Origin: Craspedostauros australis
Taxonomy: Eukaryota > Bacillariophyta > Bacillariophyceae > Mastogloiales > Achnanthaceae
Assembly: GCA_026770025.1 (NCBI GenBank)
Contig: JAMXDE010000015.1
Location: 186,001-250,000, forward strand
Length of the DNA stretch: 64,000 bases
Reading direction: 5' to 3'
Position 1 is the first letter of the stretch, and each line of letters opens with the position of its first letter. The notes beneath the pieces were generated by a model that was not told where the DNA came from, did no database searches, and saw nothing but the letters and a program-made list of their open reading frames with translations. Below are positions 42,000 to 58,888 of this stretch, in pieces. A program made the position numbers and the translations under genes.

Positions 42000-42123
42000 A
42001 TATCCATAATGAGGGTTTTCATGTCTGTGGAGACAAACTCTACGTAACTTGTCTCCACAGGCAAATTGAAGTCTCAATTTGCCTCCACAGACAAATCGAC
42101 CCCCATTTGCCTGTGGAGACAAA
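42000..42123. repeat. Left terminal inverted repeat of the large transposon
   Basis: Contains several self-complementary segments of the type TTTGTCTGTGGAGACAAA and CAATTTGCCTCCACAGAC, so the repeat can itself fold into small hairpins. Confidence 0.8.
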
Positions 42124-42619
42124 CGGAAGGTCGCCGAAAATGGCAACGTACTACTTAAGTCCCACATTCCTCCACGATGTCCCGTGTTGCAGAAAAAAAA
42201 AACGATTTCGCTCCGAAACCCGAAAGTGGTTTTTTTTTCTGACTCCTTCGAGTAACGCGTTTATTTGGCGATTTTATAAAAAAAAACCACGATACAGCAC
42301 GGCGTCATTGGTCATGTCTCAGGGGTTCCTTTCCGTGCGCCTGTCTTGCTTTCTCGACGTCATGGGATCTGGGGTAATCATATTCTACCTTGCTATTTCG
42401 ATGTCTGGTACCTGCGTCCACCAACATGCTTGTCGTGCTTCTCATCATGCATCAGTTTTTCGGCACTGTCTCCTTCACAATCCCGGCACCGGATTCTGGT
42501 GCTTTTGGTGCAGCTTTTCACAAATACTTGGCGACAACAGTGCATCCTCTCTCTCCTCCTGATGGCACATGAGTTCCTTGCAAATCAATTCTTATCATCG
42601 TTTCATTATTCCTGGATCC
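42124..42619. other. Transposon 3' flank between left TIR and the gene end
   Basis: Probable 3' untranslated and sub-terminal DNA of the large transposon. Homopolymer A and T tracts lie at about 42191-42290. No gene is seen. Confidence 0.5.
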
Positions 42620-44715
42620 TTACATACAGTTAGCATTTCTTGTTCGCATCCGTTTCCTCGTACGCTGCCTGGCTGCCGCGAGTTCCCTCTTCATTGTGTG
42701 TGATAGTCTGTTCGGACTTCCATCTCTTGCATTGGCACCTCTGCTTGGACTTGGTGTCGAATTCTCAGCAGCCACATGGATGGACGCAGGGGCTCCCCTT
42801 CTCGTATCCGCGAAAATCACATCTTCGTCACATGCTTCATACTCGGTTCGTCCTCCTCCTGAAGTTCCTTCCGCTGTGGCAGGATGACCGTTGCCGTTTC
42901 CAAAGCGAGGATCGATGCTAACAGACAATGGCGAAGAAGACGCATTGCATGTTGTCTGACCCAGAGTTGCTGGGATGATCCTTCGTTCTCCTCTTCGTCT
43001 CTTCCGAATTCTTGAACCAGATCGTTGCACCACAGTTGCTCCAATATGTACATCTCCACTTGCTGAATTGGTCGATACTGACTGGCAATCGGTGTCTCCT
43101 TCCAGTACATTCCGTCTGTTTCTATCTCTGACCGACGTATGTTGCACCAACATGTTTGTCATTGATGGTGGTATCTCATTGTCCGTTTGCTGTGCCATGG
43201 TTGTTGCACTTCTGCGGCAGTCACTGCCCAGCGCATGCGCATTCTGCGTGGAGGCCGCAGAGGGGGGCTCTCTCCTTGCCCCTGCCTTGTTGACGTCCGG
43301 ATCTCCCCTCTCCATGATCCGAATGGTTGCATCTGGCGCCATGGCACCCCTGCCTCCCTCTGGTCCATCGATAGAATCTGACATGTTTGCACCAGTCGTG
43401 TTCAATCTATATGCAGGAACAGCAGAGGCCTGGGCAAGCAATGCATCTTCGGCATCAGCTTCTGCGGTTGCAGCCATTTCCGTAGCAAGCCTTGCTGCTT
43501 GTTGGGCGATCCTTGCGGTAGCGCGCTTTGCCCGGGTATCTGCCTTCTTCTGCCGGACCTCCTCGTTGGTATTGCGCTGCGTGTAGTTCAGGTTGGTTTC
43601 AGAACACCATAATGTTGGGTTGCTGTGGAGAAGATGATGACATGTGTTCTCGACCACTGCTGCCACACTCTTCACAGGGAAATTGCAAAGTGCCAGGGTA
43701 GGTGATACCCCCTGTGTCTCCATCCATGCCCTCTTTTCCTCATTCGACTGTGCGCACACGAACATGTGGCATCCAGCGCACACCCAGGTAGTCACATTCG
43801 CACAAACGACGCAGGTTCCTCGTTTGGCGACGCACTTCCTGGGGATGTGCTCTCTTTGCTTCATGTTGGTGCGTATCAAGTGTTGCCTTGGGGTATCTGC
43901 GGTGGCCTTCATGCAAAGGATACCTCGTAGCTCCGCTGGTTGTACCGGACTCGAATTTGTTGGAGGATTGCCTTCGAAGAGCCTTGGTATACCGTGTGGG
44001 ATCCTTTTGCAATGGATTGATATAGTGCCAGAATAGTTGCCATCAGCCTCAGCCTGTTGGACCTCGTCCTCATCGCATAGGCGCTGCAACATGTGCCGGA
44101 AGCACGTGTTGATTTCCACCATGGTCTGCTGGAAACTGCGACGCTGATTTACCCTGTTCCTGTAGTGGCCGAGCGTGTCACTTTCGATAACGTCAGTGTT
44201 GTCTGCTGGCCGATTCGGATCCACATGTTGGCTGACTTTGTGAATGGCCATGAACATGACTTGCAGCTGTCGTGAGACGGCAGTGCAGCCCATGGTTGGG
44301 ATGGGCAGGTCCGGAGAGTGTGATTCCATCATCCTGGTCATTATGTCTGAGCCTCCCTTCAACGAATTCCATACGGAGTAGATCTTGGGCAGGAAGGTTT
44401 TCACCTTGGGTACTGGAAACTTCAGGTGCTTGTGACAGGCTTGCCATTTCCGTACCTCCTGCATGAGGTCGTCCTCTGTGAGCGATGCGAGGACCTCGTT
44501 ACACCCTCGAAATGGTGCTTGTGTCGACATGGAAGCAAGAAATCTTGTCAACAATGCATAGGATGGTGATGCTGTCGTCCCCCTCACAGGAGTTTCCGAG
44601 TATGCGAATTCCAGAACCATTTTGTGGAGGTCCTTCAGCACCCTGCTGTAGGCTACAAGAAGTGATGGTCTGAACCTGGTTGCAATGGTGCGAATTGGTT
44701 TTGCTGCCGTGTCGC
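42620..44715 (-). CDS. Exon 3 of the fused transposase: third DDE Asp and Cys cluster
   Basis: The frame is open from 44749 to TAA at 42620, but the acceptor ATCACAG at 44716-44722 joins it in phase to the upstream exon (reading CIG-DTAAK). The first residues complete the YqaJ-like domain. VWNSLKGGSDIMTRMM (Asp codon near 44348) aligns in character with the GGVDxxD region that carries the third catalytic Asp in piggyBac-type enzymes. Further on, CVVC...CAGC...FVC...TCHHLLH is a Cys/His cluster like the piggyBac C-terminal zinc domain. The tail is Ser/Thr-rich, ending with basic stretches (RIRKRRRGERR, RTRKRMRTR) fit for nuclear import. If the intron is wrong, this would be a separate 709-residue protein. 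Confidence 0.65.
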
Positions 44716-44858
44716 CTGTGATGTGGTGACACAGTTCGTCCCGTTGCAATCCAATGTTGTGAGGTGATTTTCATGACAAGTGAAGATAGTGGATGGAGGT
44801 TAGTGATGTGGATTCTCATGCAAAGACGGGAAATGATGATATCACCTCAGATACGTAC
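44716..44858 (-). other. Candidate intron 2 of the transposase (143 bp)
   Basis: Donor GTACGT at 44858-44853 and acceptor CACAG ending at 44716. Removal keeps the frame and bypasses the TGA at 44842. The pyrimidine tract before the acceptor is weak. Confidence 0.55.
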
Positions 44859-46903
44859 CAATGCAAAGGAGGGCGTTCGGAACACCAAAGACAAAGGAAT
44901 GATGCAACAACTGTATCATTTCCTCTGGTCTCGAAAAAGCCGCTCTGAACTCATCATCCTGCAGTGGGAAGAACGCATTGTTGTTGATTGGGTGACCAGG
45001 TCGTTGTTTTGCCTTTGCATGCCACTCCTTTTCGTCCAGTTCTGTCTTTGGTGATGCTCGAGTTTTCATTTCGACCACGAACACCTTTTCTTGTAGTTCA
45101 CTGGCAGATTCTCCCACAACTGCAAGAAAGTCCACTGATGCTCGAGCATAAGGCTGGTCAGGATGCCTCACCAGCCCAGCACTGAATGCAGCTTTCAGTC
45201 GAGTGTTGGGCCCACAAATGTTGGCATGTGTCATCACCTCTTCCATCAAAGGGTCTTCGTTGTCCAACCCGAGCTGGATTGGTTCTCCCTCTTCACCCTT
45301 GCGGGGCTTCATATACCAGGAGGACAGCACCTGTTGCATGAGGCGCATCTGCAGCTCCTGCAGGTATTTGTTGGTACCTGCATCCTCCGACTCCTTCCTG
45401 TTGTTGCACGGTTGAGAAGTGTCTGCAGGTGCGGACGGCTGTGCTTGGTCTTGTTTGACCAGCATTCTCCGGAGGTCTGCAGCGGCGATCTTGTCCCTCC
45501 TGGATGCTGGATATCTTTTGGTGTGGATTGATTTCAGCATTGTTGTAGTCATGAGGCAGTATCGTCGATGAAACTTGCACTTCATTTGTAGGATCTTCTT
45601 CAGTTTTGATAGCAACGTGCCCAGTCCACGAGAGTTGTTGTCACCATAGAAGAGCCCGACCAATGCTCGGATTTCTTCCTCAGCTGCTGCTTGAGACAAC
45701 ACACTGTGGTCACAGAGTAATGCATGTAGCAGTATCTGCTCATCCGACAGTGTGTTGCCTGGAGCTGAATCATCCTCATGAGAGGTACTGGTGGCACTGT
45801 CCGAGTCAGGAACCGATTCTGCACGTTTGCTCAACGCGTCGAGCATCTTCTCTTCCAAAGCAGCCGAGTCGATGCTGTTCTCTGTCAGCGCCTTGTACAC
45901 CGAATGGGCCCTGTCGTTGATCTTCCGCATTTTCTTAGTTCGATCAAGGTCTCCCAATTTTGCGCCATGGTCGATCCCAAGATACTCTGCAACTGTCTTC
46001 CATGCTGCAATATCGAAGGTGCTCATGTTGGCTCTGTCAACCCACTCCTCTGATTGAAGAATAGTCGAAATGAGCTTGTATGTTGATGAGCTTGTGAGTG
46101 CGAACTTCCGTAGCATGAACCAGAGTGGGTCACGTTGGGCACATGTCAGTCCCTCAACCTGAAGGTCATGGATGTGTGACGACCATCTTGCCTTGGCCGC
46201 TTCCCGTCGGTGCCGTAATTCCTCTGTGGCAATGTGGACCTGGGTCATGGCATCTCGTCTTTCGTCTCCACCTTCAGCTGCAAGGAAGAGATGATCAGCA
46301 TGCGCCAAATTCCTCTCTCCTTCTTGCACTGCATGGGATGTACCATAGTTGTAGGCAAATGGCACGAAGTATTGGGGAAAGGAAGACGTCCTCAAGTCTG
46401 CATCAGGAGGAGCGTTGACAAGGTTGTTGTACAGCTTCTCGTCCGCAAAGTTGACAAGAGTCAGGTCCCACTCAAAGCCACCCCTCTTGGTCTCAACCCC
46501 AACCACCATCTTTCCGTTGTCCCTCATGGCATGGCATGTCAATACCTTGTTTGGTATCTTGTCAGTGGAAGCAATCCAAACGTACGGTATCCCTTTCATC
46601 CGAAGATCCATTTGACCTTTCGGTCTCCGTTCACGTTGACCAAAATCAAATGGGAGGTATCCGTCACGCTTGTGGGTGCTGAGGATATCAGCTCCAACTT
46701 CGATGAGGTTCTTGACTATCTCTTCGCAGCTGTAGCCTCGATCGAATAAGACGGTTACATCCTCCAGCCACATCATTCCCTTCCCGAGCTGCTGCTTGAT
46801 GGCATCCAGCGTCAACTTCGTGTCTCCACCTTGAGATTTCCTGAGCCAGAACAGACCACATGGCATACCCGAACAGGTGAATGCCATTGTGTTGGCAACA
46901 AGG
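44859..46903 (-). CDS. Exon 2 of the fused transposase: second DDE Asp and YqaJ-like nuclease
   Basis: It begins after the acceptor TTTCTCAG (46904) with LVANTMAFTCSGMPCG. The segment MWLEDVTVLFDRGYSCEEI (Asp codon near 46742), followed by STHKR, fits the second catalytic Asp of a DDE transposase. About 180 residues later LWFMLRKFALTSSSTYKLI resembles the N-terminal R...LTaS signature of YqaJ/lambda-exonuclease recombinases. ARASVDFLAVVG (near 45128) and VFVVEMKTR (near 45070) supply the D...ExK metal-binding pair of that nuclease fold. A helical linker separates them. Read alone, the frame starts at 46935 only with a non-ATG codon, agreeing with its being an internal exon. Confidence 0.65.
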
Positions 46904-46941
46904 CTGAGAAAGAATAGAAGGAGAGTGGAATGCAAGAAAAA

Positions 46942-47573
46942 TATTAGCGCAACGCTAAATCTCTAACAATAGCGACACCCGTCGACCAATCAGAAATCTC
47001 CACTTTTCTTCCTTTTTCCGTTCCGAACGGAAATTTTGGTCGAAAATCCGTTGTGTCAAATTTGTGTCACATTTCGCGTCGCAAGAACCGTTTTCCCGTT
47101 AATCACAGATTTCGGATGTCGCGGAAATGAATTTCTTGCCAAGATGAACCTCTCTGCCCAATCAGGACAGACTTCGGTCTTGGGTGCGACACGTGCGAAT
47201 CTTGCCATGACCTTCTCAAGTGAATACGATCAATCGTGTGATCGTACTACTAGCAACATCGTGAGAAGACGTAATTCACAACACGGGGTATCGCGGTGTT
47301 TTGTTCATTGACTTTTGCAACTCATCTTCACGCAGTAACACGCACATTTGTCGTGTTGTCTCCGTGTTAATTTTACTTGCAATTGCATGATATCATGTCA
47401 TGCCTCTTTCATGCTCACAGTTCTCAAGAAACCATCTTGTGAGCTCGCCTGCATTCATACTACCATACGAATAATACAGTAAACAAACACTCTCCTCACC
47501 AACAACAACGACTTGATCACTCTACGTTCTCGGTGCGGTATCCTTCACACCCATCTACGATTACGTTCTAACA
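46942..47573 (+). mobile_element. 5' LTR of family-3 copia
   Basis: Starts TATTAGCGCAACGCTAAATC and ends GATTACGTTCTAACA. GTATTAGCGC...GCGCAACGCTAA forms a short inverted repeat near the start. It is identical to the 3' LTR over most of its length except the cluster described in the findings. Confidence 0.88.
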
Positions 47574-47903
47574 GATTAACAGTCGCAAGCTTTCACCTAC
47601 TGAATTGATTGCGTGACAATCCATCCATCCTTCATCCCTCGTCCATCCACGAGCGATCCCTTCACCTTCCATCACGTGACGACGTGATTTCGGCTTTCCT
47701 TCGGCTTTCTCGCATTCGCAGAACGCCCTCCTTTCGGTTCCCCTGCTGAGTTCGGGCCTTCCCACTCAGCCATCCAAGACTTCCTGCAGTACCCTCCCGC
47801 ACCAGAAGACGATTCAGTCAGTGCACTCCAGCCTCAGCTATCCTTCAGCTCTCAGCTATTCTTCGCTTCCATCTTCCATCCGTCCATCCATCCATCGCTC
47901 ATC

Positions 47904-50900
47904 ATGACGACTGCTGAGACGGACCTCGCCACCCTGGATCACATCCTCGGTGTCATCGGCATCCCTTCCGACTCAACTCCTCGCGATATCATCGCTCATG
48001 AGGACATCATCAGCCCTCTCGACCTCGTCTCTCTCACCGAGGATGACCTTCGCAGCTTCCATCTCAGTGGCAACACCGATGATGGCGAGCCCTTCACCGC
48101 ATCCCTCGGCATCAACCACATCCGCAAGATTCTGAACCTCGGCAAGTGGTACCTCACTCAGTCCATTCTGGATGACGATACCTGGAACGAACTTGATCGC
48201 GCTACCTTCATGGCGTTCACGGCTGAGCAGAGCAACCCTTCTCTTCCTTCTTCACGCTCGCATTCGACTGCAAGCACACCTGTGCCATCTCCAACTGGCA
48301 TGGGCATGGGCATGGGCAACCACACCACTCCGGCATCCGCATTCCGTCCTGTGGCCGAAGAACCTCCGCATGTGAACTTCGGATTCGATCCTTCGGCTTC
48401 GGTGCCTGATCCTGCCTTCCCGCAACCGCCTGTGACTCCATCCATGGCACCCTCTTCAAACTTCCCAGGTGTCCAAGCCATGGAGCTTCCAGCTGACTAC
48501 GTCAAGGAGTTCAGCAAGGCAACCAAGCGGGAGAGTCTGTCGCTCCCAACACTGAAAGACGACAAGCACTTCCTCACCTTCATGCGGACCTTCGAGACTC
48601 TTTCCTTCTCCCATGGACTCAACCACCATCTCGACATGGATTTCATGCCGGCACCCAAGGACGAGGCCTTCTTCGCGAGCCAGAATCGCTACCTCTTCGC
48701 CGTGCTCACTGAGCACGTCAAGACTTCCAAGAGTCGGCGCATCATCCGTGCCTACAAGAAGTCTTGCGATGGCCGTGCGGCCTACGCCGATCTCGTTGAT
48801 AGCTACACCAGTGGTGTCGTCGGCGAGACTCTGTCCATCAAGTACCGCGATGCCATCGTCGCATTCCGCTTGGACCAGACTTGGACCAAGACCCGGGAGC
48901 AATTCCTCGATGCCTGGGAAACCAAGCTCGATGACATCGAAGAGCTCGATGATGCATGTGTCGATGAGGCAGTCAAGCAGCAATGGTTGCGCACCGCCAT
49001 CGGTCCCGATGTCGACTTGACTCGGGCCTACACCAACGTCAAGTCCAACTCCCGTCAACGTCACAAGCAATCTCGCGGCTTCATCAAGGTCGGTGTCTCC
49101 TTCGAAGACCTCCTCGAGTTCGTCCGCGATGAGGCGCAGTCCCTTGATGCCAATCAGCCTCGCACCACATCTCGGCGCAAGGTCAACAACGCCAAGACCA
49201 GCGGCTCTGCTGGCAAGGGCAATGGCAAGGACTATGCCAAGGACGACCGCCGTTCCATTCCCAACGACGAATGGCGTGAGATGTCCAAGGATCAGCGTAA
49301 GGCTTTCCTTGAGGCAAAGGGCAAGTGGCGCAAGAACAAGGGCAAGGGCAAGGCTGACTCCCACCGAGCTGCCAACAACGCTGCCACATCTTCGGGCACC
49401 ACCGACACTCCTTCCGCAACTCCGCCTGCTGGTAACACCGACTCTTCCAAGGCTGGTGACCAGTCCACTGCCATCGATCGCCTTCTCGCACAGACCAAGT
49501 CCACCTCTTTGTCTGACGATACTCCTCAACTGGTCTACAAGGGCCAGACCTGGCGCCTTGCCAACTCCACGGTGGTCCGGTACAGCTTCAACAAGCTTGT
49601 CAAGGACCACTCTGGCTCTCTCGTCGACAGCGGTGCCAATGGTGGCTTGGCTGGCGATGACGTCCTCGTTCTCTGCAAGACAGGACACACCGCCGACGTC
49701 AGTGGCATTGGTGACTCTGCCATTGCCAACCTCGACATCGGTACGGTTGCTGGTCTCATCCAGACCACCGAAGGGCCCATCATTGGTAAATTCCACCAAT
49801 ACGCGCTCTACGGAAAGGGCAAGACCATCCATTCATCCAATCAGCTTGGTGCCTTCAGAATGGATGTCAACGAACGCCCACGGAATCTCCCTGGAGGTCG
49901 CCAGACCATCATCACACCAGGAGGCCACATCATCCCACTGGCTGTCCGGCAGGGCCTGTCCTACATGGACATGGCCAAGCCCACCCGCTCTGAACTCGAC
50001 AAGTATCCACATGTCGACTTCACCGCGGACGACGAATGGGACCCTTCTTCCCTCGACCAGGAGATGAACCTCGACGACGTCGACGATGATGACGCCGCAG
50101 CACTCCAGCGCCGCGAGAACAACTCTACCGTTCTCACGGCCTACACTGGTGCTCGCCAAGCCGACATCGCTGACAACCCGGGCAGCATCATTGCCACTCG
50201 CAAGCCTGCCGACTACGAGGCTCTCCGACCCCACTTCGGCTGGATTCCAGCTCGTCGCGTTCGCGACACTCTTCGGTGTACCTCTCAATGGTACCGTACC
50301 GCCGAGCGCTTCTCCATGCGCAAGCATTTCAAGTCTCGGTTCCCAGCGGCCAACGTCGACCGTCTCCATGAGACGGTTGCGATGGATACGCTCTTCTCCG
50401 ATACCCCTGCTCACAACGACGGGGTTCCCGGCCATGGCGGCTGCACCATGCTTCAGGTGTACGTCGCCCTCGACTCTCGGTTCACGGCCGGTTTTCCCAT
50501 GCCATCCGAGAGCCGCATCTCCGACACTCTCCGTGACTTCATTCGACGCCACGGGGCTCCCGACCTACTGATGTCTGATAACGCCAAGGCGCAGATCGGT
50601 AACAAGGTTATGGAGATCCTCCGGCAGTATCACATCCGTGATCACCAGAGTGAGCCGGAACATCAACACCAGAACGGCGCGGAACGCCGGATCCAGGATA
50701 TCAAACGCACGACCAACGGTGTGATGGATCGCACGGGTACTCCCGACCGCTTCTGGCTGATCTGCACGCTCTATGTGATTGATCTCTTCAATCACATCGC
50801 GCAGGTCACCGCTGGCTCCATCACCCCCCTTCAAGCCGCCTTCGGACAGCGACCGGACATCTCCAAGTTCCTGTCCTACCGGTGGTGGCAACCTGTCTAC

Positions 50901-53504
50901 TATCGGGTTGACAACCCCACCTTCCCCAGCCAGTCCAAGGAGCGCAGTGGACGCTGGGCCGGTCCCTGCCTTCACAAAGGCGATGATCTTACCTTCTGGG
51001 TCCTCGACGACGAGACCCAGCGACTCCTCCCTCGGTCTGCCATCCGACCTGCCGACGACTCTGCCACCCGCAATCTTCGTGCGGACTTCCCCTTCCCCAT
51101 TGTTGGGGAGGACGATGGCTCTGATGCCATGAATGTGGCGAATGGGGAGCCAGACGACGACATCTCCGTCCCTCCTGACTCCGACCCCATCGTACACTCC
51201 CTCGCCGATTCCATCCTGGCTGACCGCCGCGGCACAGACCCTGAAACAGTGGGGAATGCCAAGGTCCACATCCCAAAGTTCTCTCCCGAGGATCTCGTTG
51301 GGATGACCTTCATCCACGAGAAGGATGGCCAGCAAGTCAGAGCGGAGGTGGTGCAAAAGGTCAATGACCTTGACGCAGCCAACCACCAACGCATCAAGAT
51401 GCTACTCGCACTGGCTGATGGGGAGACGCATGACCTCATCTCCTACGTTGAGCTCGCCGATATCATCGAACGGCAACAAGAGCACAGCGACGACCCTGAC
51501 GCCAAGTGGGAGTTCGACTCCATCATCGGACACGAGGGTCCCCTCCCATCTTCCTCTCCGTCCTACAAGGGATCGAGCTTCAACGTCATCGTCAAATGGG
51601 GAGACGGCTCCACCTCCACCGAACCCCTCTCCATCATGATTCAGGATGATCCTGTCTCTTGCGCTGCCTACGGCCGCCGCCACGAGCTGCTCGACGAGCC
51701 TGGCTGGAAGCGCCTCAAGCGCCTCGCCATCCGAACCAACCGTCTTGAGCGACAAGTCCACGTCGCCAAGGCCAAGGCCTTCAACCACGCCCCTACCTTC
51801 CAGTTCGGTGTCCAAGTCCCTCGCAACCACAAGGAGGCGATGCGACTCGACGACAAGAACGGCAACACTCTCTGGGCCGATGCCGAGAAGAAGGAGATGG
51901 ACCAACTCTTCGGGTACCATACCTTCAAGTCTCTCGGAAAAGGCGCCCCAGTCCCTTCTGGCTTCCAGAAGATCCGCCTCCAATGGGTCTATGCTGTGAA
52001 GCACGACCTCCGCCACAAGGCGCGCTGCGTCGCTGGTGGTCATCTCACCGACCCCTGCAAGGATGCATCCTACGCAGGTGTGGTCAGTCTTCGCTCTCTC
52101 CGCCTCTCCCTCCTCGCCGGCGAACTCAACGGCATCCCAACCTGGGTTGGAGACATCGGCAATGCGTATCTTGAGGCCTTCACTCAAGAACGCATCTGCT
52201 TCATCGCTGGCGATGAATTCGGTGACTTCGCTGGTCATACCATGCAGATAGTCAAGGCACTCTACGGCCTGCGCACATCGGGCGCCCGATTCCATGAGGC
52301 TCTCGCCGACACCCTTCGCGACATGGGTTTCCTCCAATGCCGCTCCGATCCCGACGTCTGGATGCGTGACGCCAACTCCCATTGGGAGTACGTCTGCGTC
52401 TACGTCGATGATCTCACCGCGACGATGGCCGACCCCAAGGCTTTCTTCGACATCCTCTCTTCGAAGTACGGGTACCAGCTCAAGGGAGTTGGTCCTATCA
52501 AGTACCATCTCGGTGCTGACTTCGGCCGTGATCCCGACGGCACTCTCAAGCTCTCCCCGCAATCCTACATCAAGCGGATGATGGAGAACTACGAGCGCAT
52601 GTTCGGCGAGCTTCCCCGCAAGATCAGCTGCCCCCTCGACAAGGCCGACAGTCCGGAGCTCGACACCTCTTCCGAACTTAGCGAAACCGACAAACGCAAG
52701 TTCATGTCGCTCATCGGTGCACTCCAGTGGTGTATCTCCCTCGGACGGTTTGACATCTCTGTCGCCGTCATGACGCTGGCACGCTTCCGCTCAGCTCCTC
52801 GCCAAGGCCATCTGGACCGCGCCAAGCGCATCTACGGGTATCTTCGAAAACACCCGGATGCAGCCATCCGCTTCCGCACGTGCGTTCCCCGCTTCGATCT
52901 TCACTACGAGGTTCCCAACCATGACTGGATCTACTCCGTCTATGGGAAGACCTCTGAGGAGATTCCGGACGACATCCCCGAGCCGAAAGGCAAACCTGTC
53001 CGAACCACCACGTTCGTCGACGCCAACCTTCTCCACTGCCAAGTCACTGGCAGATCTGCTACCAGTGCTCTCCATCTGGTAAACCAGACCCCCATCGAAT
53101 GGTTCTCCAAGCGCCAAGGCACGGTCGAGACCGCCACCTACGGGTCCGAGTTCGTCGCTGCCCGCCAAGCTACGGAGCAGATCATCTCCCTTCGCCTCGC
53201 TCTCCGCGAGATGGGCATTCCGATCGACGGCCCCAGCTGGATGCTGGGTGACAATCAGTCCGTCATCACCTCCTCCACGGTCCCCAAGAGCATGCTCTCC
53301 AAGCGCCACAACGCACTGGCTTACCATCGCGTCCGGTCCGCTGTCGCCGCTGGCATCCTCTACTTCATCAAGATCCCCGGCACGCAGAACGTCGCCGACG
53401 TGATGACGAAGTTCCTCCCGTGGGCTGTCTTCTGGCCCCTCGTGAAGCCCATCCTCTTCTGGAAAGGACACACCGAGTCCTCTACCCCGACCTACAAGAC
53501 CTGA
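47904..53504 (+). CDS. Gag-Pol polyprotein, Ty1/copia family 3 (1866 aa)
   Basis: An intact frame beginning at ATG 47904 (CATCATG context) about 330 bp after the 5' LTR. Gag carries a Lys-rich basic segment (GKWRKNKGKGKADS, about residue 475) instead of visible CCHC knuckles. Then: protease DSGANGG near residue 575; integrase with Asp 827 (VAMDTLF), Asp near 891 (LMSDNAKAQ) and Glu near 927 (NGAERRIQD); reverse transcriptase with YVDDL near 1500; and RNase H with FVDANLL near 1704 and LGDNQSV. It differs strongly from families 1 and 2 and lacks their HRMLGH and QQNGRVE motifs. It resembles the diatom copia proteins lacking a zinc knuckle. Codons are more C-rich at third positions than in the surroundings. 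Confidence 0.93.
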   Translation: MTTAETDLATLDHILGVIGIPSDSTPRDIIAHEDIISPLDLVSLTEDDLRSFHLSGNTDDGEPFTASLGINHIRKILNLGKWYLTQSILDDDTWNELDRATFMAFTAEQSNPSLPSSRSHSTASTPVPSPTGMGMGMGNHTTPASAFRPVAEEPPHVNFGFDPSASVPDPAFPQPPVTPSMAPSSNFPGVQAMELPADYVKEFSKATKRESLSLPTLKDDKHFLTFMRTFETLSFSHGLNHHLDMDFMPAPKDEAFFASQNRYLFAVLTEHVKTSKSRRIIRAYKKSCDGRAAYADLVDSYTSGVVGETLSIKYRDAIVAFRLDQTWTKTREQFLDAWETKLDDIEELDDACVDEAVKQQWLRTAIGPDVDLTRAYTNVKSNSRQRHKQSRGFIKVGVSFEDLLEFVRDEAQSLDANQPRTTSRRKVNNAKTSGSAGKGNGKDYAKDDRRSIPNDEWREMSKDQRKAFLEAKGKWRKNKGKGKADSHRAANNAATSSGTTDTPSATPPAGNTDSSKAGDQSTAIDRLLAQTKSTSLSDDTPQLVYKGQTWRLANSTVVRYSFNKLVKDHSGSLVDSGANGGLAGDDVLVLCKTGHTADVSGIGDSAIANLDIGTVAGLIQTTEGPIIGKFHQYALYGKGKTIHSSNQLGAFRMDVNERPRNLPGGRQTIITPGGHIIPLAVRQGLSYMDMAKPTRSELDKYPHVDFTADDEWDPSSLDQEMNLDDVDDDDAAALQRRENNSTVLTAYTGARQADIADNPGSIIATRKPADYEALRPHFGWIPARRVRDTLRCTSQWYRTAERFSMRKHFKSRFPAANVDRLHETVAMDTLFSDTPAHNDGVPGHGGCTMLQVYVALDSRFTAGFPMPSESRISDTLRDFIRRHGAPDLLMSDNAKAQIGNKVMEILRQYHIRDHQSEPEHQHQNGAERRIQDIKRTTNGVMDRTGTPDRFWLICTLYVIDLFNHIAQVTAGSITPLQAAFGQRPDISKFLSYRWWQPVYYRVDNPTFPSQSKERSGRWAGPCLHKGDDLTFWVLDDETQRLLPRSAIRPADDSATRNLRADFPFPIVGEDDGSDAMNVANGEPDDDISVPPDSDPIVHSLADSILADRRGTDPETVGNAKVHIPKFSPEDLVGMTFIHEKDGQQVRAEVVQKVNDLDAANHQRIKMLLALADGETHDLISYVELADIIERQQEHSDDPDAKWEFDSIIGHEGPLPSSSPSYKGSSFNVIVKWGDGSTSTEPLSIMIQDDPVSCAAYGRRHELLDEPGWKRLKRLAIRTNRLERQVHVAKAKAFNHAPTFQFGVQVPRNHKEAMRLDDKNGNTLWADAEKKEMDQLFGYHTFKSLGKGAPVPSGFQKIRLQWVYAVKHDLRHKARCVAGGHLTDPCKDASYAGVVSLRSLRLSLLAGELNGIPTWVGDIGNAYLEAFTQERICFIAGDEFGDFAGHTMQIVKALYGLRTSGARFHEALADTLRDMGFLQCRSDPDVWMRDANSHWEYVCVYVDDLTATMADPKAFFDILSSKYGYQLKGVGPIKYHLGADFGRDPDGTLKLSPQSYIKRMMENYERMFGELPRKISCPLDKADSPELDTSSELSETDKRKFMSLIGALQWCISLGRFDISVAVMTLARFRSAPRQGHLDRAKRIYGYLRKHPDAAIRFRTCVPRFDLHYEVPNHDWIYSVYGKTSEEIPDDIPEPKGKPVRTTTFVDANLLHCQVTGRSATSALHLVNQTPIEWFSKRQGTVETATYGSEFVAARQATEQIISLRLALREMGIPIDGPSWMLGDNQSVITSSTVPKSMLSKRHNALAYHRVRSAVAAGILYFIKIPGTQNVADVMTKFLPWAVFWPLVKPILFWKGHTESSTPTYKT

Positions 53505-53518
53505 ATGTCCGGGACACG

Positions 53519-53528
53519 CTTTGGGGAG
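53519..53528 (+). promoter_or_regulatory. Polypurine tract TTTGGGGAG
   Basis: Purine run directly before the family-3 3' LTR, a few bases after the pol stop codon. Confidence 0.55.
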
Positions 53529-54159
53529 TATTAGCGCAACGCTAAATCTCTAACAATAGCGACACCCGTCGACCAATCAGAAATCTCCACTTTTCTTCCT
53601 TTTTCCGTTCCGAACGGAAATTTTGGTCGAAAATCCGTTGTGTCAAATTTGTGTCACATTTCGCGTCGCAAGAACCGTTTTCCCTTCAAACACAGTTCCA
53701 AAATGTCGCGGAAATTGATTTCTTGCCAAGATGAACCTCTCTGCCCAATCAGGACAGACTTCGGTCTTGGGTGCGACACGTGCGAATCTTGCCATGACCT
53801 TCTCAAGTGAATACGATCAATCGTGTGATCGTACTACTAGCAACATCGTGAGAAGACGTAATTCACAACACGGGGTATCGCGGTGTTTTGTTCATTGACT
53901 TTTGCAACTCATCTTCACGCAGTAACACGCACATTTGTCGTGTTGTCTCCGTGTTATTTTACTTGCAATTGCATGATATCATGTCATGCCTCTTTCATGC
54001 TCACAGTTCTCAAGAAACCATCTTGTGAGCTCGCCTGCATTCATACTACCATACGAATAATACAGTAAACAAACACTCTCCTCACCAACAACAACGACTT
54101 GATCACTCTACGTTCTCGGTGCGGTATCCTTCACACCCATCTACGATTACGTTCTAACA
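53529..54159 (+). mobile_element. 3' LTR of family-3 copia
   Basis: 631 bp; same ends as the 5' LTR, one base shorter through a single-base gap in a T/A run (GTTAATTTT versus GTTATTTT). Confidence 0.88.
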
Positions 54160-54262
54160 AAAAGAAAATAGGTTGAGAGTATGGATACAATTGACTGGAA
54201 CTTCACAGAGAAACAAAATCACACGGCCAACTCAACCATTGTGATGATCATCGCACACGTAC

Positions 54263-57200
54263 CCAAACCGATTTTTTTGGATGTGTCGTACTCTGCGAAG
54301 GTTGCTCTTGCTGCCACGACTTCCGCATTGGACTTTGTCATCGTCAAGGGTGATGTACCTCTCGGATGTCATGTTTCGTAGCACCATGTGATCAAGGACT
54401 TCATTGCAGCACTTCTCCAGAGTGAACCATAGGTAAGTTGGTCGGTCACTTTCTGGTACTTCACCATCATCTGAAATGAGGTCCCATGCCTGCATGTACT
54501 CCTCCCTGGTTGGAAATCCACTGCCAGTTTGCAGAATTTTGGTGGAGTACATCTCCTTCACCGACAGATTGAAGCATGCCTGAGTTGTGAAGCCAACCAT
54601 GAACTGTACAAAGTTCTTGAACCCCATGCCCAACCCTGCTGGACCAAAGGCTGAAGAGAAGATGATGGAGTGGTCTCCGAAGACAAACTTTGTGAAGTCG
54701 TCTGTGGTTGGGTTGTGTTTCTTGGTGTTGAGTACTGCACGAGCACGAATCTGAAGAACCTCAGCCACCATGAGCTTGTGGCAAAGCCGCTGTGCAGCGC
54801 TGACGGAGACAGAGAATTTGCATGTACGCCAAGGCAGAAGGTCCCACTTCATCGGCATAGTTTTGATTCCAGAGGCATTGATGTCATGGAGAGTCTGCGA
54901 AGGCAAAGTGACAAGGTAGCCATCATTGCCATTTTCATCTCCATTACCGTTGTCATCTCCATTGCTTATGCTGTCAATATTGCAGCCAACATTGCCATTG
55001 ATATCATTGTCGGAGTTGGTGTTGGCATTGTTGTGGTTGACATTGTTGTGGTTGACATTGTTGTTGCTGGTGTTGTCGTCGCCACTGTTGAGGCATACAC
55101 CGAGGCCAGTGGCAACACCAATCAAGGATTGGTTTGGCGCAACTGAAATATGTTGAGGTGGACTCTGGGACACTTGATGGATGTCACCATCGACAGGTGC
55201 GGTGGCTGACTGTGGATTTGGGTCCTGTGTTGCATTATGCATGCTGAATGCGCCAGTGCTGACACCCTGCCCATTGTTGCTCGCATTGCTGATGCTGTCC
55301 GTCACTGGGGTGGAAGTTGATCGAGCATGCTGCTGTTGGTTTGGTGAGTTGTTTGCATTGATGATGCTCTCCATTGCTGGAGTGGAAGTTGATCGAGCAT
55401 GGTGCCGTTGCTTTGGTGAGTTGTTCGCATTGCTGATGCTGTCCGTCACTGGGGTGGAAGTTGATCGAGCATGCTGCTGTTGGTTTGGTGAGTTGTTTGC
55501 ATTGATGATGCACTCCATTGCTGGAGTGGAAGTTGATCGAGCATGGTGCCGTTGCTTTGGTGAGTTGTTCGCATTGATGATGCTGTCCGTCACTGGAGTG
55601 GAAGTTGATCGAGCATGCTGCCATTGGTTTGGTGAGTTGTTTGCATTGATGATGCTGCCCGTCACTGGGGTGGAAGTTGATCGAGCATGCTGCCGTTGGT
55701 TTGGTGAGCTGTTCGCATTGATGATGCTCTCCATTGCTGGAGTGGAAGTTGATCGAGCACGGTGCCGTTGGCTTTGTGAGTTGCGCGCATTGCTGATGCT
55801 GTCCGTCACTGGGGTGGAAGTTGATCGAGCATGCTGCCGTTGGTTTGTTGAGTTGCGCGCATTGCTGATGCTGTCCGTCACTGGAGTGGAAGTTGATCGG
55901 GCATGCTGCCGTTGGTTTGGTGAGTTGTTCGCATTGATGATGCTCTCCATCACTGGGGTGGAAGTTGATCGAGCATGGTGCTGTTGGTTTTGTGAGTTGC
56001 GCGCATTGCTGATGCTGCCCGTCACTGGGGTGGAAGTTGATCGAGCATGGTGCCGTTGCTTTGGTGAGTTGTTCGCATTGATGATGCTGTCCGTCACTGG
56101 AGTGGAAGTTGATCGAGTGCGCTGCTGTTGGTTTTGTGAGTTGCGCGCATTGATGCTCTCCGTCAGTGGGGTGGAAGTTGATCGAGTGTGCTGCTGTTGG
56201 TTTGGTGAGTTGTTTGCATTGATGATGCTGCCCGTCACTGGAGTGGAAGTTGATCGAGTGCGCTGCTGTTGGTTTGGTGAGTTGCGTGCATCGATGATGT
56301 TCTCCGTCACTGGGGTGGAAGTTGATCGAATGTGCTGCCGTTGGTTTGTTGAGTTGCGCGCATTGATGCTCTCCGTCAGTGGGGTGGAAGTTGATCGAGT
56401 GTGCTGCTGTTGGTTTTGTGAGTTGTTTGCATTGCTGATGCTGTCCGTCACTGGGGTGGAAGTTGATCGAGTGCGCTGCTGTTGGTTTTGTGAGTTGCGC
56501 GCATTGATGGTGCTGTCCATCACTGGAGTGGAAGTTGATCGAGTGTGCTGCTGTTGGTTTTGTGAGTTGCTCGCATTGCTGATGCTGTCCGTCACTGGAG
56601 TGGAAGTTGATCGAGCATGCTGCCGTTGGTTTGGTGAGTTGCGCATATTGCTGATGCTGTCCATTACTGGAGTGGAAGTTGATCGAGTACGCTGCCGTTG
56701 GTTTGTTGAGTTGCTTGCATTGCTGATGCTGTCCGTCACTGGAGTGGAAGTTGATCGAGCATGCTGCCATTGGTTTGGTGAGTTGCGCGCATTGCTGATG
56801 CTGTCCATTACTGGAGTGGAAGTTGATTGAGCACGCTGCCGTTGGTTTGGTGAGTTGTTTGCATTGATGATGCTGTCCGTCACTGGGGTGGAAGTTGATC
56901 GAGTGCGCTGCTGTTGGTTTTGTGAGTTGCGCGCATTGATGGTGCTGTCCATCACTGGAGTGGAAGTTGATCGAGTGTGCTGCTGTTGGTTTTGTGAGTT
57001 GCTCGCATTGCTGATGCTGTCCGTCACTGGAGTGGAAGTTGATCGAGCATGCTGCCGTTGGTTTGGTGAGTTGCGCATATTGCTGATGCTGTCCATTACT
57101 GGAGTGGAAGTTGATCGAGTACGCTGCCGTTGGTTTGTTGAGTTGCTTGCATTGCTGATGCTGTCCGTCACTGGAGTGGAAGTTGATCGAGCATGCTGCC

Positions 57201-58332
57201 ATTGGTTTGGTGAGTTGCGCGCATTGCTGATGCTGTCCATTACTGGAGTGGAAGTTGATTGAGCACGCTGCCGTTGGTTTGGTGAGTTGTTTGCATTGAT
57301 GATGCTCTCCATCGCTGGGGTGGAAGTTGATCGAGCATGCTGCCGTTGGTTTTGTGAGTTGTTTGCATTGCTGATGCTGTCCGTCAGTGGGGTGGAAGTT
57401 GATCGAGTGCGCAGCTGTTGGTTTGGTGAGTTGTTTGCATTGCTGATGCTCTCCATTGCTGGGGTGGAAGTTGATCGAGTGTGCTGATGTTGGTTTTGTG
57501 AGTTGCGCGCATTGATGGTGCTGTCCATCACTGGGGTGGAAGTTGATCGAGCATGGTGCCGTTGGTTTTGTGAGTTGCGCGCATTGCTGATGCTGCCCGT
57601 CACTGGGGTGGAAGTTGATCGAGCACGGTGCTGTTGGTTTGGTGAGTTGCGCGCATTGCTGATGCTCTCCATTGCTGGGGTGGAAGTTGATCGAGCACGG
57701 TGCTGTTGGTTTGGTGAGTTGTTTGCATTGCTGATGCTGCCCGTCACTGGGGTGGAAGTTGACTGAGCACGGTGCTGTTGGTTTGTTGAGTTGCGCGCAT
57801 TGCTGATGCTCTCCGTCAGTGGGGTGGAAGTTGATCAAGTGTGCTGCTGTTGGTTTGGTGAGTTGTTTGCATTGCTGATGCTCTCCATCGCTGGGGTGGA
57901 AGTTGATTGAGCACGGTGCTGTTGGTTTGGTGGGTTGCGCGCATTGATGATGCTGTCCATCACTGGAGTGGAAGTTGATCGGGCATGCTGCTGTTGGTGT
58001 GATGGGTTGCGTGCATTGCTGATGTTCTCAATCGCTGGAGTGGAAGTTGATCGAGTGTGCTGATGTTGGTTTGGTGAGTTGTTTGCGTTGATGATGCTCC
58101 CCATCACTGAAGTGGAAGTTGATCGAGTGCGCTGCTGTTGGTTTTGTGAGTTGTTTGCATTGCTGATGCTGTCCGTCACTGGGGTGGAAGTTGATGGAGC
58201 ACGCTGCTGTTGGTGTGATGGGTTGTTTGCATTGATGATGCTCTCCATCACTGGGGCGGAAGTTGATCGAGTGTGTTGCTGCTGTTTTTTGTGAGAACTG
58301 GAAAGAAGGCATGCTTCAATTCTGTTTTGCAA
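54263..58332 (-). CDS. Exon 1 of the fused transposase: 24-residue repeat domain and first DDE Asp
   Basis: It opens with MQNRIEACLLSSS at 58332. It then carries about 41 tandem 24-residue repeats of the pattern STPVTDSISNANNSPNQQQHARST, a polar region likely to be disordered. A linker rich in Asn/Asp/Gly follows (NNNVNHNN, GNGDENGND), then a globular part (MKWDLLPWRTCKF to the donor). YITLDDDKVQCGSRG (near 54340) looks like the first catalytic Asp region of a DDE transposase. The frame is whole except for one TGA at 57835-57837, where neighbouring repeats have CGA. Many in-frame ATGs lie downstream in the repeats, so a shorter product starting after the stop is possible. Otherwise this is a recent pseudogene. 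Confidence 0.65.
55290..58275 (-). repeat. 72-bp coding minisatellite, about 41 units
   Basis: Units share GGAGTGGAAGTTGATCGAG on the plus strand. Nearly all are 72 bp, a few 69 bp, so the reading frame is never broken by unit-length changes. A 432-bp block (six units) at about 56439-56870 is repeated at about 56871-57302 with very few changes. Confidence 0.93.
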
Positions 58333-58772
58333 CAGCAGAAGAAGCCAGTGTCATTGCAATGTTGGCATGTGGAAGTGTGGGATGGACAGATTGCAAGTGC
58401 ATGTTGAACATGTGTTGATGTGGAGGAAGATGGGGAAGTGATGTGTGCGATGGAGAAACGACGGGGTTGTGGATGTCGTTGGCGAGTGTCCACCGGCAAC
58501 GGTGAAAGCAACGGAATTGGCGGAACAGGTGTGTGTGAGTGCATGGAGAACATCAACCCACGATGACAGCAAATGCAAAAGCATGGCAACGGTGTGACAC
58601 GACCAGGGGGGCGACGCACGACGCATGATCATTGTTTGTTCAATTCCCACAACTGCAACGATTATTATAAATTTAAGACATGAGGCATGTCGTGAGTCGA
58701 GCTGGCCAGCGAAAAAGGGTTAAAAAAAACGGCTTCTCATAAAGCGTATTTGGGCGAGTCCGTTGAGTCGCA
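58333..58772. other. Presumed promoter side of the large transposon gene
   Basis: Lies between the first exon and the right inverted repeat. TTATAAATTTAAG at about 58665-58677 could act as an AT-rich promoter element for the minus-strand gene; this is conjecture. No other gene is supported. Confidence 0.4.
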
Positions 58773-58888
58773 GTTTGTCTGTGGAGACAAATGGACCCCA
58801 ATTTGCCTGTGGAGACAAATTGCACCTCCAATTTGCCTGGGGAGACAAGCCACGTAGGCCAGTACCAGGCCGAAATCATTATGGATAT
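58773..58888. repeat. Right terminal inverted repeat of the large transposon
   Basis: Inverted counterpart of 42000-42123, with the same order of TTTGTCTGTGGAGACAAA-like hairpins, CACGTAG and the outer CATTATGGATAT. Confidence 0.8.

Follow-up and report, generated by a model that had tools for sequence, protein, structure and literature searches.

In the transposon group ISL2EU (PHIS superfamily), a YqaJ protein is described as the product of a second open reading frame (ORF) (PMC4482050). In KolobokE, a lambda-exonuclease-like nuclease is encoded with the DDD/E transposase and is reported to lie downstream of the transposase domain (PMC9587614). In Tn5, Hermes, RAG1 and the P element, the RNase H fold is described as interrupted by a further domain ahead of the third catalytic acid; that of the P element binds GTP (PMC8230255, PMC6900584). 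Here we analysed a DNA transposon found in a stretch of 64,000 nucleotides (the window) of the diatom Craspedostauros australis, which is part of the 74.8-Mb, 90-contig eukaryotic assembly to which all genome-wide counts refer. This transposon carries one gene in which the interval between the second and third acids of a distant piggyBac/IS4-like DDD transposase probably holds a lambda-exonuclease/YqaJ-type nuclease, for which we propose a role in the processing of donor ends.

The gene comprises three exons on the minus strand (Table 1). Exon 1 contains the LDDDKV motif, exon 2 contains FDRGY and the nuclease, and exon 3 contains KGGSD and a Cys/His cluster. The motif order read in a first-pass annotation of the window (LDDD, FDRGY, YqaJ-type motifs, KGGSD, Cys/His cluster) was recovered in full on this strand. 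Twenty loci were fetched and 18 of them spliced, giving 19 copies together with that of the window. Two loci were left out of splicing: L033, which is broken by an insertion and lacks exon 3 within the fetched sequence, and L039, which was missed by the motif filter. Splice sites were picked so that the frames join, and GT and AG were present at every site. In all 19 spliced copies, the three exons join in one frame with no internal stop and both introns stand at identical places. Exon 2 of L039, read on its own, shows the nuclease motifs with EIKTR in place of EMKTR. The N-terminal coding region also holds a coding repeat with a period of 72 bp (window 55276-58295), and 72-bp-stepped matches indicate that its extent varies among sibling copies.

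The nuclease was compared with known enzymes by hhalign, using a profile of a ten-sequence family alignment and a profile that combined ten phage exonucleases with one gene of the same genome. With the long spacer that follows motif 1 removed, the match to the lambda-exonuclease/YqaJ profile reached E 1.1e-6 with a probability of 91 over 134 columns, as compared to E 0.17-0.68 in five controls. The NCBIfam lambda-exonuclease model TIGR03033 matched four of 11 members (best E 0.0025) and Pfam Viral_alk_exo three of 11 exon-2 members (best E 0.047). With the spacer removed, one of three composites aligned end to end with Pfam YqaJ, at E 0.0096 and 16.6 bits for a cut-off of 22. In the joint alignment, the equivalents of lambda W24, R28, T33, E85, S117, D119, E129 and K131 were identical in 10 of 10 sequences, and the position of S35 was occupied by S in seven and T in three of the 10. 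In lambda exonuclease, Trp24 and Arg28 are described as holding the 5′ phosphate, and Glu85, Asp119 and Lys131 as active-site residues (PMC7496540). Throughout the 19 family copies, the E, D, E and K of the nuclease and the W and R of the pocket are invariant. Overall, these comparisons argue for a good assignment of the predicted nuclease to the lambda-exonuclease/YqaJ type.

Within the spacer, a segment MTxxTLKxxxKxRLP...LV (window 45457-45552) is conserved. By eye it resembles a SAP motif; Pfam reports no SAP there. A genome scan with Pfam YqaJ gave a single match, on contig C25. It corresponds to a separate gene (L001, C25:34761-35165, E 1.6e-17), which stands outside this transposon family.

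The acids of the transposase were then considered, with residue numbers (D151-153, D232, column 332, D888, D983) following the family alignment. From the first motif to KGGSD and outside the nuclease, the strictly invariant acids of the 19 copies are D151-153, D232, D888 and D983, and KGGSD itself is invariant in all of them. No strictly invariant acid was found in these copies between D232 and the nuclease, which suggests that the third catalytic acid is most probably located after the nuclease. The family profile without the nuclease aligned to piggyBac group 1, which consists of three copies from this assembly, at E 0.0023, as compared to 0.24 and 0.53 for reversed controls. Register was kept for the final D of LDDDKV, which follows a five-residue gap, and for the D of FDRGY, THKR and VST. 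By the same profile method, piggyBac groups 1 and 2 matched each other at E 0.0078. In exon 3, the motif LPKIYSVWNSLKGGSD aligned to IPKMIDDYNHWMGGVD of group 1 at E 0.02 (0.43 when reversed), and this weak profile alignment places KGGSD on the GGVD of piggyBac. We infer the third acid from this alignment and from conservation. The distance D151-D232 is 81 residues, as compared to 75 in group 1 and 103-105 in group 2, and D232-D983 spans 751 residues, as compared to 124 and 132-134, respectively. Pfam DDE_Tnp_1 matched two of 11 exon-2 members, with a best E of 1.3e-4 and scores below the Pfam cut-off. Overall, the transposase appears to be of the DDD type and distantly piggyBac/IS4-like.

Ratios of nonsynonymous to synonymous substitution rates (dN/dS) were calculated for each segment in six close pairs of copies, which are not independent as the window copy enters three of them. 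The first transposase part gave 0.11-0.29, the nuclease 0.14-0.39, the third-D part 0.04-0.45 and the C-terminal tail 0.16-0.74, with the saturated pairs L030-L031, L031-L032 and L038-L040 excluded from these ranges. Transposase and nuclease are both under purifying selection. The nesting of the nuclease within the transposase, as put forward in the first-pass annotation, is thus supported by the shared introns and invariant catalytic acids of the 19 copies, by in-register profile alignments and by dN/dS values below 1 in each segment. Trees calculated separately for the transposase and for the nuclease both recovered four identical groups, with modest support (87/92) for one group in the nuclease tree. 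This agreement is consistent with one ancestral insertion.

The transposon is 16,889 bp long, or 9,671 bp when a Copia element located in intron 1 is subtracted, and its ends (ATATCCATAATGA ... TCATTATGGATAT) are common to the sibling copies. The pattern of the 5′ terminus was found at 70 places of the genome with at most two mismatches, and the reversed pattern at none. Inverted termini of 18-21 matching letters, starting with ATATCC, were observed in L030, L037, L038, L040 and L041. They were weaker or ambiguous in L031, L032 and L039, and the terminus comparison of the other copies did not find them for L034-L036. All 11 elements with both ends read are flanked by ATAT, the search being conditional on TATCC and GGATA; at the 70 5′ termini, A comes first in 64 and T occupies position 4 in 68. 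Depending on the length of the duplication (TA or ATAT), the element starts with CC or TCC. For the element inserted in L027, the junction in L030 represents the empty site, with a single ATAT. In L022, L027/L030 and L040/L041, elements were seen inserted in the terminal ATAT of other elements, giving head-to-tail junctions with one shared ATAT. When the termini found genome-wide were paired, 28 short copies (586-782 bp) and 11 longer copies resulted. Short non-autonomous copies occur, for instance, at L025:649-1405 and L040:1697-2448 (oriented), and elsewhere.

Copies of the gene were counted with a search for the exon-2 frame, which gave 127 matches, grouped into 59 clusters and, after the splitting of two neighbours, 60 loci. 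Only the best candidates were scored, so that the locus counts are lower bounds. FDRGY, LTSSS and EMKTR occur together in 44 of at least 60 exon-2 loci, 42 of them taken from the search rows and two (L030, L032) completed from their own splicing. Of these 44 full exon-2 loci, 42 are preceded by exon 1 and followed by exon 3 in the same orientation, the search reaching 1.5 kb, or 10 kb in the case of the window copy. The two others are L033, which has no exon 3, and a locus with no exon 1 inside the limit. As part of the same probable explanation as the nested nuclease, we regard these loci as a large family of cut-and-paste DNA transposons with many intact copies.

The other exon-2 loci are at least 11 deletion copies, in which the match ends before the SVDF motif, and five partial ones. 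In the search rows, exon 1 was present in 11 of the at least 11 deletion copies and exon 3 in none of the 11. These copies retain exon 1 and about 590 residues of exon 2, without the SVDF/EMKTR half (for example C1:2148926-2150488 and C16:330489-332048). Since 11 of the matches stop at the same residue, 605, the deletion copies may spread as a unit, and they might act as repressors. One of them was read further, and its frame leaves the nuclease midway and continues into an apparent C-terminal tail. Decayed exon-3 copies were also seen (C2:37649, C62:97951, C16:1387706, C17:102701). The stops recorded in them are 6-7 TGA, with TAA and TAG absent, which matches the expectation of C-to-T decay at CGA codons.

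A possible role of the nuclease can be proposed from its position, which along the sequence agrees with that of the insertion domains of other DDE enzymes. The RNase H-like half of the protein would excise and insert the element, and the exonuclease would occupy the place at which the RNase H fold takes up an insertion. IS4 and piggyBac are described as leaving hairpins on the excised transposon (PMC6900584). If the same holds here, free 5′ phosphates would be left only on the donor chromosome, and the nuclease half, with its phosphate-holding residues, may act on the broken donor ends. Resection of the donor break would favour repair from a homologous copy, so that the element would be restored at the donor site. 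The nuclease activity, the hairpins and the repair outcome are all steps that we infer. We put forward more tentatively, as somewhat more doubtful than probable, that the family is a new transposon lineage in which the DDE insertion domain is an active 5′-phosphate-dependent lambda exonuclease and one synaptic complex both excises the element and resects the donor chromosome, so that cut-and-paste transposition would in effect produce copies.

Several observations weigh against a nuclease nested in a piggyBac/IS4-like transposase. When the spacer was kept, only the motif-1 region matched lambda exonuclease in hhalign (E 0.0016). The cut-off of Pfam YqaJ (PF09588) was not reached by any piece, none of the 11 exon-2 members matched this model, and lambda Q157 has no aligned counterpart in the joint alignment. 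On the transposase side, the hhalign probability of the match to piggyBac group 1 was just 12.5, the second piggyBac group gave E 0.38 to the family profile, and the third-D alignment gave E 0.26 with group 2 and 0.24 in global mode. DDE_Tnp_1_7 (PF13843) matched none of four transposase composites at E up to 10 and none of the 11 exon-2 members. Profile searches of the PDB with exons 2 and 3 gave one and five matches at E up to 1, with no relative among them, and the single-sequence AlphaFold model of exon 2 was unusable (mean predicted local distance difference test score, pLDDT, 37.1). Finally, column 332, before the nuclease, is always acidic, with D in 16 and E in three of the 19 copies.

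This column could provide the third acid, in which case the nuclease would not be nested: it would lie downstream of the catalytic domain, as in the KolobokE precedent (PMC9587614), and KGGSD would belong to a separate C-terminal domain. The weakness of the alignment of KGGSD with the third piggyBac motif (E 0.02) is in favour of such an arrangement. However, KGGSD is invariant in 19 of 19 copies and falls on the piggyBac GGVD, and an exchange of D for E is unusual for a catalytic acid inside one family; we therefore consider this arrangement quite unlikely. If the nuclease is nested, it might instead work in excision, by trimming the second strand or opening hairpins at the transposon ends. 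The insertion domains of Tn5, Hermes and RAG1, described as shaping DNA during cleavage (PMC8230255, PMC6900584), would be parallels, but the conserved W and R of the 5′-phosphate pocket seem to fit end-directed digestion better than hairpin opening, and such a role is rather improbable, though less so than the absence of nesting. An inactive nuclease serving as a structural or DNA-binding insertion domain would account for the unaligned Q157 and for the long spacer that splits the nuclease fold. It is highly improbable in view of the invariance of the E, D, E, K and pocket residues in all 19 copies and of the nuclease dN/dS of 0.14-0.39. As for exons of separate genes mistakenly read together, the 7.2 kb of Copia between motifs 1 and 2 of the window copy might suggest it, but this reading has hardly any probability because the siblings are uninterrupted: their exons stand 133-136 bp apart and join in frame, and 42 of at least 60 exon-2 loci are complete. 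The nuclease nested between the second and third acids, acting on donor ends, is thus the reading that we retain as probable.

Table 1. Features of the transposon, its gene and the inserted Copia element (window positions)
Feature	Positions	Strand	Evidence or remark
Whole DNA transposon	42000-58888	-	Homology boundaries with sibling copies; inverted termini
Exon 1 frame	54263-57834	-	ORF, splicing, motif positions; includes the 72-bp-periodic coding repeat
LDDDKV, first acidic motif (exon 1)	54331-54348	-	
Intron 1	46904-54262	-	GT 5′ end, AG 3′ end; 7,359 bp in window copy
Exon 2	44859-46903	-	FDRGY, STHKR, nuclease motifs
FDRGY, second acidic motif (exon 2)	46732-46746	-	
STHKR (exon 2)	46648-46680	-	
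Nested lambda-exonuclease/YqaJ-type nuclease (predicted)	44860-46185	-	hhalign, NCBIfam TIGR03033; long spacer between motif 1 and NE
LTSSS motif (nuclease motif 1), LWFMLRKFALTSSS	46084-46125	-	
LDNEDPLM (NE motif)	45244-45267	-	
ASVDFLAV (SVD motif)	45118-45141	-	
VVEMKTR (EMK motif)	45058-45078	-	
Intron 2	44716-44858	-	143 bp
Exon 3 with stop codon	42620-44715	-	
LKGGSDIMTRM (KGGSD motif, exon 3)	44330-44362	-	
CxxC/CxxC/C cluster (exon 3)	43754-43813	-	
NTCHHLLH (exon 3)	43625-43648	-	
Copia long terminal repeat (LTR) retrotransposon inside intron 1	46942-54159	+ (antisense to gene)	LTRs, borders, RVT_2
Copia LTRs	46942-47573 and 53529-54159	+	
Copia frame	47688-53504	+	Pfam RVT_2 E 5.9e-21

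Intron 1 measures 133-136 bp in eight siblings (L022-L029), as compared to 7,359 bp in the window copy. The sibling copies continue across the place of the Copia insertion, and the size of intron 1 in the window copy is explained by its enlargement by this element. In the window copy, Copia, which the first-pass annotation did not mention, accounts for most of the sequence that separates LDDD from FDRGY. Identity between the compared LTR blocks is 96% over 300 nt and 100% over 204 nt, and the differences are clustered in one short stretch.

Elsewhere in the genome, 88 matches to silicon transporters (PF03842) were recorded (best E 4.2e-249; 32 at E 4.3e-228 or lower), with several per contig, for example on C2, C9, C24, C37 and C61. 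This number seems high for one diatom. Light-harvesting proteins gave 61 matches. By themselves, these two sets of matches make a diatom source very probable, since this transporter family is linked with diatoms.

With regard to known systems, the predicted nuclease shares with lambda exonuclease and YqaJ the catalytic and phosphate-pocket residues, which are in register, and differs from them by the long spacer after motif 1, by its location inside a transposase and by the unaligned Q157. The family resembles piggyBac by an AT-rich palindromic site and, by motif, by a C-terminal Cys/His cluster, which is a feature of piggyBac; its three acids may also be in register with those of piggyBac, going by the weak profile alignments with group 1. 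In contrast, its composites do not match PF13843, and its sites are ATAT whereas those of piggyBac are TTAA. ISL2EU is also described as a DDE DNA transposon with a YqaJ-type nuclease and an AT-rich target (PMC4482050). However, in that description its nuclease is a separate ORF, in line with the first-pass annotation, which named YqaJ proteins as separate partners in ISL2EU, whereas one frame extends over three exons in 19 of 19 copies here. Its duplication is AT within A|AT|T, whereas the sites here are ATAT and not AATT, and its transposase is reported to have HTH and THAP domains. No THAP or HTH match was obtained in Pfam scans of exons 2 and 3, of four transposase composites and of 322 residues of exon 1. 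Membership in ISL2EU was rejected on the nuclease ORF and on the duplication.

KolobokE likewise encodes a lambda-exonuclease-like nuclease together with a DDD/E transposase, but its nuclease is reported downstream of the transposase domain (PMC9587614) and not nested as here. The TTAA duplications, 5′-RR termini and C/DxxH signature of Kolobok were not seen in this family; for the signature, no invariant H occurs between D232 and the nuclease, nor from the nuclease end to D983. Membership in Kolobok or KolobokE was rejected on the ATAT sites, the CC/TCC start and the missing C/DxxH histidine. A profile scan of viral contigs for relatives gave 23 pattern matches, none of which was confirmed. 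As far as the cited accounts go, none of the insertion domains of the P element, Hermes, Tn5 and RAG1 is an exonuclease (PMC8230255, PMC6900584). A nuclease nested between the second and third acids was not found in the literature searched, which consisted mostly of titles and abstract openings, with Repbase outside the search. The arrangement, judged non-standard in the first-pass annotation, looks new within that literature.

If the nested reading is true, a whole second nuclease domain could be accommodated at the insertion point of the RNase H fold. With both putative active sites in one chain and many intact copies, it becomes testable whether a transposon chooses the repair route of the donor break. 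Lambda-exonuclease-like nucleases would now be found with three DDE transposases, those of ISL2EU, KolobokE and the present family, in three layouts, which suggests a shared need for DNA-end processing in eukaryotic transposition.

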